36,427 bases of DNA from a virus. The stretch is from positions 1 to 36,427 of the IMG/VR virus record IMGVR_UViG_3300013099_000048. The stretch is one strand, 5' to 3'. Positions within the stretch are counted from its first letter, which is position 1; each line of letters begins with the position of its first letter. A program made the translations under genes and the position numbers. Shown here piece by piece: positions 5,112-10,538 of this stretch. The notes under the pieces are model-generated. The model saw only the letters and a program-made list of their open reading frames with translations, did not search any database and was not told where the DNA came from.

Positions 5112-6791
5112 ATGCTCGCGTCCACAGCTTCACTCGCAAAGGTCGCCATCGCCCAGGTAAAGAAGGCCGACAGGCTATTCTTTGATGTTGAGACAACAGG
5201 GTTACACTGGTCACGTGGCGACCGTATCTGCGGTGTTGCTGTGGACGCCGGGCACGGCACGCACTACCTACCCTTCCGACATGGCGAGGGGTACAACCTG
5301 CCAGAGCACTACCTGGGTAAGTTAGCTGAGGCCATGAACGGCAAGCCAGTGTGCGGACACAACACCAAGTTCGACGCTCACTTCATGGCCCTAGAGGGGT
5401 ACGAGATCCCGGACAGTCTGCATTGTACGCTACTCGCCTCGCAGCTGCTTAACGAGAACGTAAAGAGCTTGTCACTCAAGAAGTTGGGCGACCAGTACCT
5501 TGGATCGGACAGCAGCGCCGAAGACAAGCAACTCGGGGAGGAACTGCGCAAGAGGAAGTTGAAGAAGGGCGACATGTGGAAACTGCCATCAGAGGTCGTG
5601 GCGCCGTATGCCATCCAGGACGTCGACCTCACGCGCCGTCTGTACGAGTATGTGGTTCCCAGGCTTAAGGGGTGGGGGCTATACGAGATATGGTTGGAGT
5701 GCTGCCGATACCTGACCATCACGGCGAACATGGAAGAGCGCGGCATGCAGGTTGACAGTAAGGTACTGTCTAAACTAGCGAGTAGGGCGGAGATCGAATC
5801 GGCGGCGTTGCTTGACAAGATCCGCACCGTAGCCGGGTACGACGTCAACCCTGGGTCGCCACCGCAGATGAAGGGCTTGCTGCAAACAGCAGACACGAAG
5901 GCCAGTACGGTGGAGCGATGCAATCACCCAGCCGCATCGTTGCTATTGAAGTGGCGCCAATGGAGCAAGATGTACAGTTCATACTGCAAGCCCTGGGCGG
6001 AGGCAGCCGCGCTAGACGGTGCCATCCACGCGTCGCTGAACCTAGGCGGAACGGTTGCCGGCCGACCCTCCTGTAGTGGGCCTAACCTACAGGCTGTCGC
6101 CAGGAAGACCGAAGTGTACGTCGTCAAGGACGCCATCGTCGCCCGGCCTGGGCGCGTGATCGTGTCTGCCGACTACAGCCAAGCAGAGTTGCGCCTGGGC
6201 GCGCACTACGCCAAAGAACAGCGTATGATCGACGTGTTCATGGCCGACGGCGATATCCACCAGGAGACGGCAGACGAGGCCGGGATTAAGCGTAATGATG
6301 CGAAGCGCATCAACTTCGGTATCGTGTACGGTCTCGGGTCGAAGGGCTTGGCAGAGCAGCTACGAATCCCGCGTAAAGAGGCCGCCGGCATGTTGTCCAA
6401 ATGGCACGCCACCTACCCGGGGTTCAGCAAGTTAGCCGATGCGGCAGAGAACGCTGCTAGGACGGACGGCCTTATCAGAATGTGGACGGGTCGCATTCGC
6501 CGATTCGACGGCTTGGTCAGTCAGTACCGTAACGCGCTGTCGGCCCTGGTCCAGGGCGGCGTGGCCGAGATCATGCGCACCGCAATCATGAAGTTGGACT
6601 ACCACCGCGACATCGCGCCTATGTTGATGCAAGTGCACGATCAGGTGCTGTTCGAGCCGAAACTGGACGACTTGGAAGAAGCGGTGTATTTTATCAGAGA
6701 AGCGATGCAGGATTTTCATTTCACCGTGCCCATGAAGGTTGACATATCGTATGGCCCGTCATGGGGCGACCAAAAGGAGATAGTGGTATGA
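5112..6791 (+). CDS. dpoZ: PolA-type DNA polymerase with 3'-5' exonuclease (DpoZ-like)
   Basis: 559 residues. The N-terminal DEDDy exonuclease is intact: D25-x-E27, D88 (HNTKFD), Y166-x3-D170. The polymerase domain has the TVAGRPSCSGPNLQ motif (314-327), motif A SADYSQAELR (D354), motif B K398...Y406 and motif C QVHDQ (D510). There is no 5' nuclease domain. Motif C has Gln511 where PolA enzymes usually have Glu. The gene overlaps the PurZ gene by four bases (ATGA). Family knowledge: the DpoZ polymerases of 2-aminoadenine phages are PolA-type, encoded next to purZ, and their exonuclease rejects adenine. The DpoZ name is inferred from this neighbour; the sequence alone shows a PolA polymerase. 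Confidence 0.9.
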   Translation: MLASTASLAKVAIAQVKKADRLFFDVETTGLHWSRGDRICGVAVDAGHGTHYLPFRHGEGYNLPEHYLGKLAEAMNGKPVCGHNTKFDAHFMALEGYEIPDSLHCTLLASQLLNENVKSLSLKKLGDQYLGSDSSAEDKQLGEELRKRKLKKGDMWKLPSEVVAPYAIQDVDLTRRLYEYVVPRLKGWGLYEIWLECCRYLTITANMEERGMQVDSKVLSKLASRAEIESAALLDKIRTVAGYDVNPGSPPQMKGLLQTADTKASTVERCNHPAASLLLKWRQWSKMYSSYCKPWAEAAALDGAIHASLNLGGTVAGRPSCSGPNLQAVARKTEVYVVKDAIVARPGRVIVSADYSQAELRLGAHYAKEQRMIDVFMADGDIHQETADEAGIKRNDAKRINFGIVYGLGSKGLAEQLRIPRKEAAGMLSKWHATYPGFSKLADAAENAARTDGLIRMWTGRIRRFDGLVSQYRNALSALVQGGVAEIMRTAIMKLDYHRDIAPMLMQVHDQVLFEPKLDDLEEAVYFIREAMQDFHFTVPMKVDISYGPSWGDQKEIVV

Positions 6792-7843
6792 GTTCCAGAG
6801 TGCTAGCCGTGGTTGGTGGTCAGTACGGAAGTGAAGGTAAGGGAAATATCGTAGCTAAGATCGCGTCTAACTACGACATGCACATCAGGACGGGAGGTCC
6901 CAACGCTGGGCATAGCCTGCGCCACAAAGGTAGAACGTGGAAGATGCGGATGGTGCCGTGTGGCTGGGTGAACCCAGATGCGAAGCTGTTCATTGGCCCA
7001 GGTGCGGTAGTCGACCCAAGACTGCTGCGGCGCGAGATTGATGAAGTCGCAGAAGTGGACCCGACTATCCACAGCCGTATCAGGATCGCGGCATCCGCTG
7101 CAGTAACACTGCCGGAGGACGAGGAAGCGGAGGCGGGTCTCGTCTTTTCCATCGGCTCGACCGGTGAGGGTGTAGGTGAGGCGCGCGCTAGGCGCATGGC
7201 ACGCAAGGACACGGGCCGGGTACTGTTGCGGGACGTGGCCGATGAGGAGGGTTTGAGCAGGTACGTTATCGAAGATACGACCTCGTACACGTCCAACCAC
7301 ATCCGCGCCGGCAAGTCTATCCTGCTGGAGGGTACGCAAGGGTTCGGCCTGTCGCTCATCCACGGACATTGGCCATACGTCACCAGCCACGACACCACGG
7401 CCGCGACCCTGACTGCCGACGCTGGGCTGTCGCCGCTCGACGTCACGAACGTACTACTGGTGGTCCGCACTATGCCGATCCGAGTGGCTGGCACGAGTGG
7501 GCCACTAGAGAATGAAACCGACTGGGACACCGTTGGGAAGCGTCTGGGAAAAGACGTCACCGAGCGTACTACCGTCACGCAGAAGATACGCCGCATCGCG
7601 GATTGGGACGACGGGCTGGTAAAGAGAGCTATCAACGTCAACCGCCCCACATCCATCGCTTTGAATTTCCTCGACTACCTTGACCCGGACATTGAAGGTG
7701 AGCACATGTGGAACGTCATCGCAAAGAGCGACAGAGTGCTCGGCATGGTGTCGTACGTCGAGTCGCGATTCGGTGTGCCAGTCTCCATTGTTGGTACTGG
7801 TGGGCCTGAGTGGTCGATATCGTACCGTAGGCCCGCACTGTGA
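6788..7843 (+). CDS. purZ: PurZ, 2-amino-deoxyadenylosuccinate synthetase
   Basis: 351 residues from ATG 6788, with AAGGAG 8 bases upstream. It is a homologue of adenylosuccinate synthetase PurA: P-loop-like GGQYGSEGKG (10-19), GGPNAGH with H42, GSTGEGVG (123-130), EGTQG (181-185) and a TSHDTTA segment. The catalytic Asp of PurA (GDEGKG) is Ser15 here, the published hallmark of PurZ, which makes room for the 2-amino group of dGMP. PurZ joins dGMP and aspartate using a nucleoside triphosphate; host PurB then releases 2-amino-dAMP (dZMP). The coupled polymerase, dUTPase and MazG-like genes support a base-replacement operon. An ordinary PurA would be about 430 residues with Asp. Confidence 0.93.
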   Translation: MSSRVLAVVGGQYGSEGKGNIVAKIASNYDMHIRTGGPNAGHSLRHKGRTWKMRMVPCGWVNPDAKLFIGPGAVVDPRLLRREIDEVAEVDPTIHSRIRIAASAAVTLPEDEEAEAGLVFSIGSTGEGVGEARARRMARKDTGRVLLRDVADEEGLSRYVIEDTTSYTSNHIRAGKSILLEGTQGFGLSLIHGHWPYVTSHDTTAATLTADAGLSPLDVTNVLLVVRTMPIRVAGTSGPLENETDWDTVGKRLGKDVTERTTVTQKIRRIADWDDGLVKRAINVNRPTSIALNFLDYLDPDIEGEHMWNVIAKSDRVLGMVSYVESRFGVPVSIVGTGGPEWSISYRRPAL

Positions 7844-8265
7844 TCACACTCATGGTTAAGGACATAGGTGCTGGCGAGGTACCCAGGAAAGCCTATGCCA
7901 ACGATGCAGGGCTCGACCTGTACGTGTCGGAAGATTGTATCGTGTGGCCAAAGTCGATGTCGGATGTGCCCCTAGGTATCGCCATCGAGCTAACCGGAGG
8001 GTATGTATGGGCCAGGATCACAGCTAGATCGAGCACGTATCGAAACCACAAGCTACAGGTGCTTGAAGGAGTCATAGACCAGGGCTACAGAGGCCCACTA
8101 TTCGTGGGGCTTATCAACAACGGCTGGCTACCACGTCGCATCAAGGCTGGTGATCGCGTGGCACAGCTCATTGTGCATGAGACCGTACCTACTATCGTCG
8201 TGAAAGTTGGTACACTTTCGGAGTCTATCCGCGGTGAGCGTGGATTTGGGAGCACAGGATCGTGA
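7840..8265 (+). CDS. dut: Trimeric-type dUTPase
   Basis: 141 residues from GTG 7840, overlapping the PurZ stop (GTGA). All five family motifs are present in order: I NDAGLDLY (D22, D26), II ITARSS, III GVIDQGYRGPL, IV RIKAGDRVAQLIV and V RGERGFGSTGS. The enzyme hydrolyses dUTP to dUMP and pyrophosphate, keeping uracil out of DNA and feeding thymidylate synthesis. Its place between PurZ and the MazG-like fusion makes it part of the phage's dNTP-pool control. Length and motifs are normal for an active homotrimeric enzyme. Confidence 0.95.
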   Translation: MITLMVKDIGAGEVPRKAYANDAGLDLYVSEDCIVWPKSMSDVPLGIAIELTGGYVWARITARSSTYRNHKLQVLEGVIDQGYRGPLFVGLINNGWLPRRIKAGDRVAQLIVHETVPTIVVKVGTLSESIRGERGFGSTGS

Positions 8266-8903
8266 ACGACGTACGTGGTATTTTCGAAGAGGCTGCTAAG
8301 ATATTCGCCGTTAAGAGTGCCGCATACAGCAGCGACAACGTAGCTATGGTCGGGCAATCCGGCGTAGCTAGCCGGTGTGTTGACAAGGTTATGCGGTTGC
8401 GAACGTTGCAGAACGACCCAGGTGTCGCTGGCGACGAGGCGATAGCTGATACCTGGATGGACCTTCTTGTCTACGCCGCCATAGGTGTAAGCCTGGATCG
8501 AGGCGAATGGGACAAGTCCACCAGGATGGTGTACCTCGCAGGTCCAATGGACTTGGTCGATACGACGGAGTCGCATGAGTGGCGCGTCAAGGCTCGAGAT
8601 TGGCTTGGAGCTAGGGGTATCGCGTCGTTCAACCCAGCCTTGCCGTACAGGCGAGGCGCCGTAGCGTGGGCCAGCGTATCCAGAATTAACCGCGTAGCTA
8701 TTGACGAATGTGACGTACTGCTGGCAAACGTAGGGGAGGGACAGCGCACCATCGGTACGTGGCGTGAAATTGAGCACGCCAGAGCAGCAGGAACGCGTGT
8801 GGTACTGGTAGCACCCGAGTACACCAAGTGCCTTGAAACGCAGGACTGTGAGCAGTACCCCACGCTGATGGCCGCACTGATGGCGGTATGGCCCGATGTC
8901 TAG
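8262..8903 (+). CDS. MazG-like / 2'-deoxyribosyltransferase-like fusion
   Basis: 213 residues from GTG 8262, overlapping the dUTPase stop. Residues 1-85 resemble the MazG-like Nmad1/DUF1599 domain: a GVASRCVDKVMRLRTL helix (R38, D41, K42, R45) followed by E59-x3-D63-x3-D67, likely Mg-binding acids. Residues 89-185 resemble nucleoside 2-deoxyribosyltransferases/DNPH1: VYLAGPM, SFNPALP, SRINRVAIDECDVLLANV and TIGTWREIEHA, with E169 as the likely catalytic Glu. MazZ in known Z-phages is a MazG-like enzyme that makes dGMP, the PurZ substrate. The second domain could remove or exchange bases on deoxynucleotides. The fusion and its role in Z-DNA synthesis are inferences. Confidence 0.75.
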   Translation: MNDVRGIFEEAAKIFAVKSAAYSSDNVAMVGQSGVASRCVDKVMRLRTLQNDPGVAGDEAIADTWMDLLVYAAIGVSLDRGEWDKSTRMVYLAGPMDLVDTTESHEWRVKARDWLGARGIASFNPALPYRRGAVAWASVSRINRVAIDECDVLLANVGEGQRTIGTWREIEHARAAGTRVVLVAPEYTKCLETQDCEQYPTLMAALMAVWPDV

Positions 8904-9177
8904 GAACGAAAGCTGTGTCGACAATGAGATCATCCGCCGCATCATCACCATGGGCGGATGGGCGCATAAGGTGCACGGCAACCAGTACAACACCGCAGAG
9001 CCCGACATCGACGGCTGCCTTGATGGCGTGTCCATCAAAGTAGAGTCAAAAAAGCTGGGCAGAGACGCCGATCCGCTACAGAGGATGGCATTGGAACGTT
9101 GGCGTCTAGCTGGAGCCGTAACCGGGGTATGCCACTCGGTGGCCGAGTTCGACAATTTGTGGGAGGCTAGAGATTGA
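8896..9177 (+). CDS. VRR-NUC-type endonuclease
   Basis: 93 residues from ATG 8896, overlapping the upstream stop by 8 bases. A GGWAHKVHGNQ segment is followed by EPDIDG (E35, D37), VESKK (E50, K52) and a downstream Gln (Q62), the compact PD-(D/E)XK pattern of stand-alone VRR-NUC proteins. These are thought to cut branched or flap DNA. It sits directly before a SNF2-type helicase with a 4-base overlap, a common phage pair, so it may act with that helicase on replication or recombination intermediates. Confidence 0.85.
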   Translation: MSRNESCVDNEIIRRIITMGGWAHKVHGNQYNTAEPDIDGCLDGVSIKVESKKLGRDADPLQRMALERWRLAGAVTGVCHSVAEFDNLWEARD

Positions 9178-10538
9178 GCAACCTGTGGGCGCACCAGGAG
9201 AAGGCCCTCGCTAGGCTTTACATCAGCGAGCACGGTTTGCTGCTGTCTATGCGGATGGGTTCAGGCAAGACTAGAGTGGCTGCTACGTACCTGGACGGTA
9301 CGAACAACATTCTAGTGGTCTGCCCCAAGACCGTGGCCTGGGATCGTGTGTGGCAAGACGAGATGCCGCACTACCGTGAAGTCAAGCTGTACGGCTGCAC
9401 AGCCAGTCAGCGCGTCGAGCGGTATAAAGAGGCTGTAGCCTCCGAGGATCTTACCCTGTGCGTCTGCACGTATGGCGCCGTGTGGCGGGACAGTTTGAAG
9501 AAGGCTCTTCTTAAGAGCCCGCCAGGGGCACTAGTAGCGGACGAATGCCACCACATCAAGGGTGCCTCGTCCAAAGTGTCTCGCGCCATGCGCCTACTCA
9601 GCAAGAAGTGTGACAAGCGACTGGGCCTGTCAGGAACACTGCTGGCCCAGTCGCCCCTTGATGGTTGGGCGCTAATGCGGTTTATCGATGAGAGCGTCGT
9701 GGACAAGTCATTCGGTCGATTCCGTGACAAGCACGCGGTAATGGGCGGATTCAAGAACCACGAGGTGTTGTCCGGCAGGCATGGGGTCCCGTGGCGCAAC
9801 ATGGACGAGTTTGTCGAAGCAATGGACAAAGTGTGCCACTACGACGACACCACAGTGTGGGACTTGCCTGTGCACGACGTGATACGCAAATTCCCCATGT
9901 CCGCAGCAGCGTTGACTGCACAGCGCGACTTAGTAAGCGTAGCGGTAGCCGACCTGGGCTCTGGCATCATCACGGCAGCCAACGCTGGCGTGCGTTTCAT
10001 GAAGATACAGCAGCTGTCATGTGGCTTTGCCCAGCCGGGACCCATGCCCGGCGAGCTGAATCCCGAGCCCATCATCATCGACACCAACCGGCGCGACACC
10101 CTGGTCGGCGTGCTAGACGAGATCGACCCGGCGGAACCTGTGCCCGTGTTTGCTCGCTTCATAGTCGACCTGGACAACATCAGGCAAGCTGCAAATATTG
10201 CCGGCCGTCCACACTTTGAGATATCCGGCGCCGCCAGCGAGCTCGACGAATGGCGCGAATGCAGAGATGGGGCGGTCCTGGGCGTACAGGTGCAGTCTGG
10301 CGGTGAAGGGATCTCCCTGGTACAAGCAGCTTACTGCATACTCTACAGCTTGGATTTCTCAAACTCCAACCACGAGCAGATCCGGGGGCGTATGGCTCGC
10401 CCCGGACAGGAGCGGTCGCCCACCTTCATCTACCTGGATGGTATCGGGTCGATGGACGGCCGCATTCGCCGTAGCCTGGGCTCGCGCCAGTCCGTCGTCA
10501 TGGACCTGTACGATAGGCTACAGGCCGTCGCCGGGTAG
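9174..10538 (+). CDS. SNF2-family DNA helicase/translocase
   Basis: 454 residues from a TTG at 9174 that overlaps the previous stop (TTGA). Motif I is MGSGKT (28-33), motif II DECH (123-126), motif III LSGT, and motif VI QIRGRMARPGQ near residue 394, followed by the ...FIYLDGIGSMDGRI region. The order and the QxxGRxxRxGQ motif are those of SNF2-type ATPases in phages. It likely remodels or moves along double-stranded DNA during replication or recombination, next to a VRR-NUC nuclease. It is the last gene of the rightward operon; the convergent gap follows. Confidence 0.9.
   Translation: MSNLWAHQEKALARLYISEHGLLLSMRMGSGKTRVAATYLDGTNNILVVCPKTVAWDRVWQDEMPHYREVKLYGCTASQRVERYKEAVASEDLTLCVCTYGAVWRDSLKKALLKSPPGALVADECHHIKGASSKVSRAMRLLSKKCDKRLGLSGTLLAQSPLDGWALMRFIDESVVDKSFGRFRDKHAVMGGFKNHEVLSGRHGVPWRNMDEFVEAMDKVCHYDDTTVWDLPVHDVIRKFPMSAAALTAQRDLVSVAVADLGSGIITAANAGVRFMKIQQLSCGFAQPGPMPGELNPEPIIIDTNRRDTLVGVLDEIDPAEPVPVFARFIVDLDNIRQAANIAGRPHFEISGAASELDEWRECRDGAVLGVQVQSGGEGISLVQAAYCILYSLDFSNSNHEQIRGRMARPGQERSPTFIYLDGIGSMDGRIRRSLGSRQSVVMDLYDRLQAVAG

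Follow-up and report, generated by a model that had tools for sequence, protein, structure and literature searches.

A fusion of an Nmad1-like and a DmtZ-type domain beside purZ in an uncultured virus as a predicted nucleotide-pool enzyme of the Z-DNA pathway

The replacement of adenine by 2-aminoadenine (Z) in phage DNA demands that dATP is lowered and dGMP supplied, needs that are served by DatZ and MazZ in the PurZ lineage of phages (S-2L, phiVC8 and SH-Ab 15497). The virus considered here, represented by the 36,427-base contig IMGVR_UViG_3300013099_000048 (linear class, no end repeats and possibly incomplete; the entire contig is called the window in the following), is uncultured and probably builds its DNA with Z in place of adenine. 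How such a virus might lower dATP is the question raised by its purZ locus. As a preceding sequence-only reading had stated, no HD-type dATPase is detectable, with the HD_3 (PF13023) and HD (PF01966) profiles both silent across the 36.4 kb record and HD_3 detecting DatZ of phiVC8 as a control. Equally, a DatZ profile gave no match in the window, and none of the three profiles finds a true DatZ elsewhere in this possibly incomplete record. A search for DUF5664 (PF18909) also gave no match in the window record, the same search giving no match to its control either. We consider it fairly probable that a fusion protein encoded in the purZ operon serves the Z-DNA pathway as a bifunctional enzyme of the nucleotide pool, the N-terminal half of which makes dAMP and the DmtZ-type C-terminal half of which processes dAMP, whereby dATP would be lowered without DatZ.

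The fusion gene and its operon

The operon runs on the plus strand, with genes overlapping for the most part, in the order exonuclease, Sak4-like annealing protein, DUF669 protein, family A DNA polymerase, PurZ, dUTPase-fold protein (Dut), Nmad1-DmtZ fusion, nuclease-like protein and helicase (Table 1). Overlaps of 4 bp between the Dut stop and the fusion start and again of 4 bp between purZ and Dut place the fusion inside the purZ operon, as had been claimed. The joining of a MazG/Nmad1-like and an NDT/DNPH1-like domain in one protein of 213 residues is likewise borne out by a single uninterrupted frame with matches to the respective families, and the residues and motifs pointed out in advance (E59, D63, D67, E169, GPM and RINRVAIDECD) are all located in its translation. 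A longer antisense frame of 382 residues (8085-9233, minus strand) spans the entire fusion gene and is probably a by-product of composition; the plus-strand frame is preferred because the family matches and the conservation across contigs belong to it.

Table 1. Coordinates of features in the window and of gp51-family members in other purZ loci
Feature	Position	Strand	Basis or remark
Family A DNA polymerase, candidate Z-selective, third lineage	5112..6791	+	PF00476; clade of 19 matching the PurZ clade, SH-aLRT 99
PurZ (2-aminoadenylosuccinate synthetase)	6761..7843	+	PHROG 1211, E 6e-76; Ser24 replaces PurA Asp13
dUTPase-fold protein of the DutZ clade, predicted to convert dATP/dGTP to dAMP/dGMP + PPi	7840..8265	+	PF00692, E 2e-24
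Nmad1-DmtZ fusion protein, 213 aa, GTG start, TAG stop	8262..8903	+	Further copies beside purZ in L002 and L025
N-half, residues 1-87, all-helical Nmad1/DUF1599 MazG-like domain	8262..8522	+	PHROG 1485, DUF1599, conserved columns, AF2 model
C-half, residues 89-213, DmtZ-type NDT-fold domain	8526..8900	+	PF05014, DmtZ residue columns, fold Z up to 15.5
E169 codon, predicted covalent nucleophile equivalent to DmtZ E103	8766..8768	+	Alignment; mutagenesis of the DmtZ equivalent (PMC12884076)
Endonuclease-like protein, next operon gene	8896..9177	+	PHROG 93; order as in L002
SNF2/DEAD helicase	9174..10538	+	Domain/family matches; order as in L002
gp51-family members	L010:16771-17331, L003:5232-5765, L045:8990-9424, L106:5507-5986

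Recurrence of the gene was evident upon a search anchored on PurZ, which delivered 80 loci and identified the same fusion beside purZ in two further contigs, L002 (40% identity) and L025, making three uncultured phages together with the window. In those contigs, the fusion is an open frame directly 3' of purZ or of a Dut gene, and because of this recurrence it is neither due to chance nor an assembly artefact; nothing was found pointing to an artefact. These relatives surfaced only via the PurZ-anchored search, as tblastn searching of 50,697 phage records with the full-length fusion, like single-protein and genome-contig searches, found nothing. Equally, in a sequence search against solved structures the whole protein had no match, and the C-half had weak matches only.

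A DmtZ-type C-half next to a DutZ relative

DmtZ, an enzyme of the NDT family from PurZ0 phages, hydrolyses dAMP to yield adenine and moves deoxyribose-5-phosphate onto Z to yield dZMP (PMC12884076, 2026). The C-half of the fusion matches the family profile Nuc_deoxyrib_tr (PF05014) above its cut-off (30.3 vs 28.8 bits), and residues 86-213 of the full-length AF2 model (pLDDT 84) match NDT, MilB and DNPH1 at Z 12.6-15.5. In the alignment, Y91, D97, P125, N143, G165 and E169 correspond to Y6, D12, P57, N77, G99 and E103 of Ghobes DmtZ, thus including the catalytic residues Tyr6, Asn77 and Glu103, Asp12 associated with dAMP selectivity and the transferase-type Pro57; the equivalents of these six residues and of Pro10 are invariant among the window, L002 and the DmtZ proteins of Ghobes, Wayne and Galactica. 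The characterised DmtZs share only 20-23% identity with the C-half. In an alignment of 61 NDT domains, the majority from beside purZ, the pair Asp12 and Asn77 is found in most DmtZ-like domains (the exceptions being L078, L098 and L104 at position 77 and L087 at position 12), whereas two control phage NDTs lack the pair with Ser or Asn at position 12 and Asp at position 77. The C-halves of the three fusions group together in a tree with support 81/89, a common grouping that is suggestive only.

Judged by its residues, the C-half would most plausibly remove adenine from dAMP or exchange bases on deoxyribose-5-phosphate, a supported reading which the sequence-only reading had anticipated for the second domain and which agrees with the chemistry of the related DmtZ (PMC12884076). 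Such a half would explain how the phage manages without DatZ. Its predicted chemistry is base removal or exchange, whereas DatZ strips the triphosphate from dATP; the fusion equally has neither the HD fold of DatZ nor a DUF550 domain. With DmtZ of Gordonia phage Ghobes (gp53) and of Arthrobacter phage Wayne (N-half of gp53), the C-half shares the NDT fold, the catalytic residue set and the position beside purZ and dutZ. It differs from these in its N-terminal Nmad1 fusion, whereas they stand alone or carry a C-terminal DutZ, and in that no Trp was found at the position aligned with the lid residue Trp124 of Ghobes DmtZ, a poorly aligning region in which most purZ-side relatives likewise lack it.

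The dUTPase-like gene upstream of the fusion had been missed in the sequence-only reading. In a tree of 40 Duts, a split with 99/94 support divides the 32 from purZ loci (including those of Wayne, Ghobes, Galactica and the window) from eight of ordinary phages, which groups the upstream gene with DutZ, an enzyme that converts dATP to dAMP and dGTP to dGMP (PMC12884076). The upstream product is thus a predicted DutZ relative, and the succession in the window of PurZ and relatives of DutZ and DmtZ corresponds to the known DatZ-free route. Fusion of DmtZ to a dNTP pyrophosphatase has been described for DmtZ-DutZ of Wayne (PMC12884076), in which a single chain couples hydrolysis of dATP to dAMP with the breakdown of dAMP, a logic that the window fusion would share. 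The window, too, has a member of the DutZ clade, but as a separate gene, and the place of the fused partner is taken by a helical MazG-like domain. As an observation aside, motif II reads RSG in 8/8 control Duts and RSS in the Duts of purZ loci (checked by eye for all but the divergent L097), which may mark the change of substrate from dUTP to dATP/dGTP.

The Nmad1-like half and its proposed supply of dAMP

Assignment of the N-half is based on a match to PHROG 1485 (E 1e-7) and on kinship to the DUF1599/Nmad1 family (PF07659), for which the window sequence scores 16.2 bits, below the Pfam cut-off of 25, and the L002 relative 27.0 bits, above it. Shared with this family are the motifs K-x3-Y-x3-N, G-x2-G, R-x2-D-K-x2-R-L and E-x3-D-T-x2-D-x3-Y; in eleven aligned sequences K18, N26, G31, G34, R38, D41, K42, R45, D63, D67 and Y71 are invariant and E59 is nearly so. 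The relatives examined elsewhere differ in that they stand alone in phages or form parts of other proteins. Predicted alone, the N-half is modelled as three helices (AF2, pLDDT 77), with which Foldseek finds no match under E 0.001. MazG-type enzymes come near the top solely upon re-alignment by VIA, with DCTPP1 (Z 7.8), mouse dCTPase (7.4), MazG of Sulfolobus (Sso; 7.2) and RS21-C6 (6.7) among the best rows, a level (Z 6-8 against MazG folds) that helical bundles can reach by chance. The MazG profile PF03819 has no match to the N-half, and a search with a narrower N-half alignment returned only the fusions already known. Since Nmad1 relatives are present in ordinary phages too, once beside a dCMP deaminase, the domain is not Z-specific.

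Building on the observed architecture, conserved catalytic residues, predicted C-half fold, operon context and recurrence, the favoured mechanism would proceed as follows. The N-half, as a dNTP pyrophosphohydrolase of the MazG superfamily acting alongside or in place of the upstream DutZ, would convert dATP to dAMP, which is handed to the C-half, and possibly dGTP to dGMP. Glu169 would then attack the sugar of dAMP and adenine would leave. Transfer of the deoxyribose-5-phosphate to water would destroy dAMP, whereas its transfer to free 2-aminoadenine would yield dZMP. Together, the two halves would dispense with DatZ in bringing down dATP, the sugar-phosphate of which would be recycled into dZTP. 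While every activity of the fusion, above all the substrate of the N-half, is one that we infer, the DmtZ step is predicted with good support from homology. dAMP (and dGMP) would be supplied by DutZ and probably also by the Nmad1 half, the latter as judged from fold, conserved acidic residues, the fusion as such and the L002 record. Weighing against this mechanism are the low identity to DmtZ, the lack of a Trp at the aligned lid position, the modest fold match of the N-half, the occurrence of Nmad1 in ordinary phages and an upstream DutZ relative that could already supply dAMP; furthermore, the records used are fragments or of uncertain completeness.

That the fusion does both jobs, lowering dATP and supplying dGMP, had been part of the sequence-only reading. 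In the window phage it need not do so, because its neighbour groups with DutZ, a maker of both dAMP and dGMP; the idea fits better to L002, a 57 kb record and possibly a fragment, in which no dUTPase, dUTPase_2, MazG or HD match was found, nor any candidate pool enzyme other than the fusion. Because a recognisable Dut, MazG or HD protein is lacking there, the N-half is the best candidate for the dAMP maker in L002. In phages of this type, one polypeptide might even lead from dATP to dZMP, with the Nmad1 half passing dAMP to the DmtZ half for the exchange of adenine for Z, a tentative proposition that we consider possible rather than probable. If true, a single protein would replace DatZ, MazZ and DutZ as a one-chain dATP-to-dZMP base exchanger built on a helical pyrophosphatase, and would serve as an enzyme marker for an uncultured third lineage of Z-DNA viruses.

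Somewhat unlikely, on the other hand, is a division of labour in which dAMP and dGMP come from DutZ, dAMP is then handled by the C-half, and the Nmad1 domain has another task, such as hydrolysis of dUTP, dCTP or another nucleotide or mere oligomerisation of the enzyme. The DutZ-clade gene directly 5' of the fusion and the occurrence of Nmad1 in ordinary phages with its single dCMP deaminase neighbourhood, suggesting a general or pyrimidine role, speak for it, but L002 carries the fusion without recognisable Dut, and E59, D63, D67, D41 and K42 are kept as expected for a working metal-dependent enzyme. Unlikely is equally that the N-half takes the role of MazZ, making dGMP from dGTP for PurZ with the removal of dATP left to DutZ and the C-half, which would split the two jobs between the domains. 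Helical pyrophosphohydrolases of Z-phages such as Wayne DUF5664 and the DUF550-DUF5664 protein of SH-Ab 15497 do act on dGTP and dATP (PMC12884076); however, the sequence of the N-half reveals no specificity, and Wayne DUF5664 favours dATP about tenfold (PMC12884076). A role of the C-half outside the Z pathway, as a common salvage NDT or as a DNPH1-like enzyme that hydrolyses a modified pyrimidine nucleotide, is improbable. NDT, MilB and DNPH1 do have this fold in common, but the residue pattern is that of DmtZ and unlike that of the control NDTs, the fusion adjoins purZ in all three of its loci, and DutZ and PurZ partners are present. The favoured bifunctional enzyme provides Nmad1/DUF1599, a widespread phage domain for which no tested function was found, with a concrete context in which function can be tested.

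Domain combinations and lineage of purZ loci

The view that no Z-pathway enzyme of this build had been described holds in part, as DmtZ and DmtZ-DutZ of Wayne are already described (PMC12884076), but no earlier report of an Nmad1-NDT fusion was found in the open-access literature and the Nmad1-DmtZ build is undescribed in the searchable literature. New are therefore this build, in three uncultured phages, and the third lineage outlined below, while the function of DmtZ is already published. The findings suggest that Z-phages have reached the coupling of a dNTP pyrophosphatase with a dAMP base-remover in more than one way, through the published Dut domain and through the MazG-like helical domain reported here, which might provide a single-chain dZMP catalyst useful for Z-DNA production.

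In other purZ loci, Nmad1 and DmtZ are encoded by adjacent separate genes (L019, L020), by genes close together near Dut (L038), or with Nmad1 preceding a DmtZ-Dut fusion (L090). A second, separate way of joining NDT and MazG-like domains is present in L044 (9436-10203) and L091 (2680-3378), where a MazG-like pyrophosphatase domain follows the NDT domain within one protein beside purZ; these proteins belong with a different purZ clade, have different NDT residues and also lack the pair Asp12 and Asn77. In L098 (9902-10555), a DmtZ-like domain is followed by a domain that matches PHROG 2831 and is MazG-like by eye.

Genes for dATP/dGTP pyrophosphohydrolases of the DUF5664 type adjoin purZ or Dut, 3' of purZ, in L024 and L037 (assigned by Pfam match) and in L031, L034, L023 and L043 (assigned by eye), and no DmtZ was found in these six loci. 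The DUF5664 proteins (PF18909) of Wayne, L024 and L037 are, like the N-half by prediction, pyrophosphohydrolases encoded beside purZ but form a family separate from it by sequence. Equally, helical proteins of the unannotated gp51 family (Ghobes gp51, PermaG gp55 and relatives) are encoded near purZ and dmtZ in dozens of loci, among them many of the PurZ0 type with the gene near dmtZ or 3' of purZ (L045 and kin, L104, L106, L110, Ghobes and PermaG). No relevant Pfam match was obtained among the members scanned, and a weak profile match to the N-half (E 2.6e-4 in one comparison, probability 42%) makes a putative kinship of the two a lead.

All 89 phage PurZ sequences have Ser at the position of Asp13 in PurA, which is Asp in E. 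coli PurA. The clade into which the window PurZ falls comprises 25 environmental sequences (SH-aLRT 98) and is distinct from the PurZ0 group of Wayne and Ghobes and from the PurZ group of phiVC8 and SH-Ab 15497, and the adjacent family A polymerases form a matching clade; both trees are quick searches, and the polymerase was placed by its tree, as its best phage matches were uninformative. From these phylogenies, the window looks like a carrier of a third PurZ/polymerase pair outside PurZ0 and PurZ, and a third lineage is thereby indicated; its PurZ and polymerase clades (window 5112-7843; L002, L019-L043) consist here of environmental contigs only.
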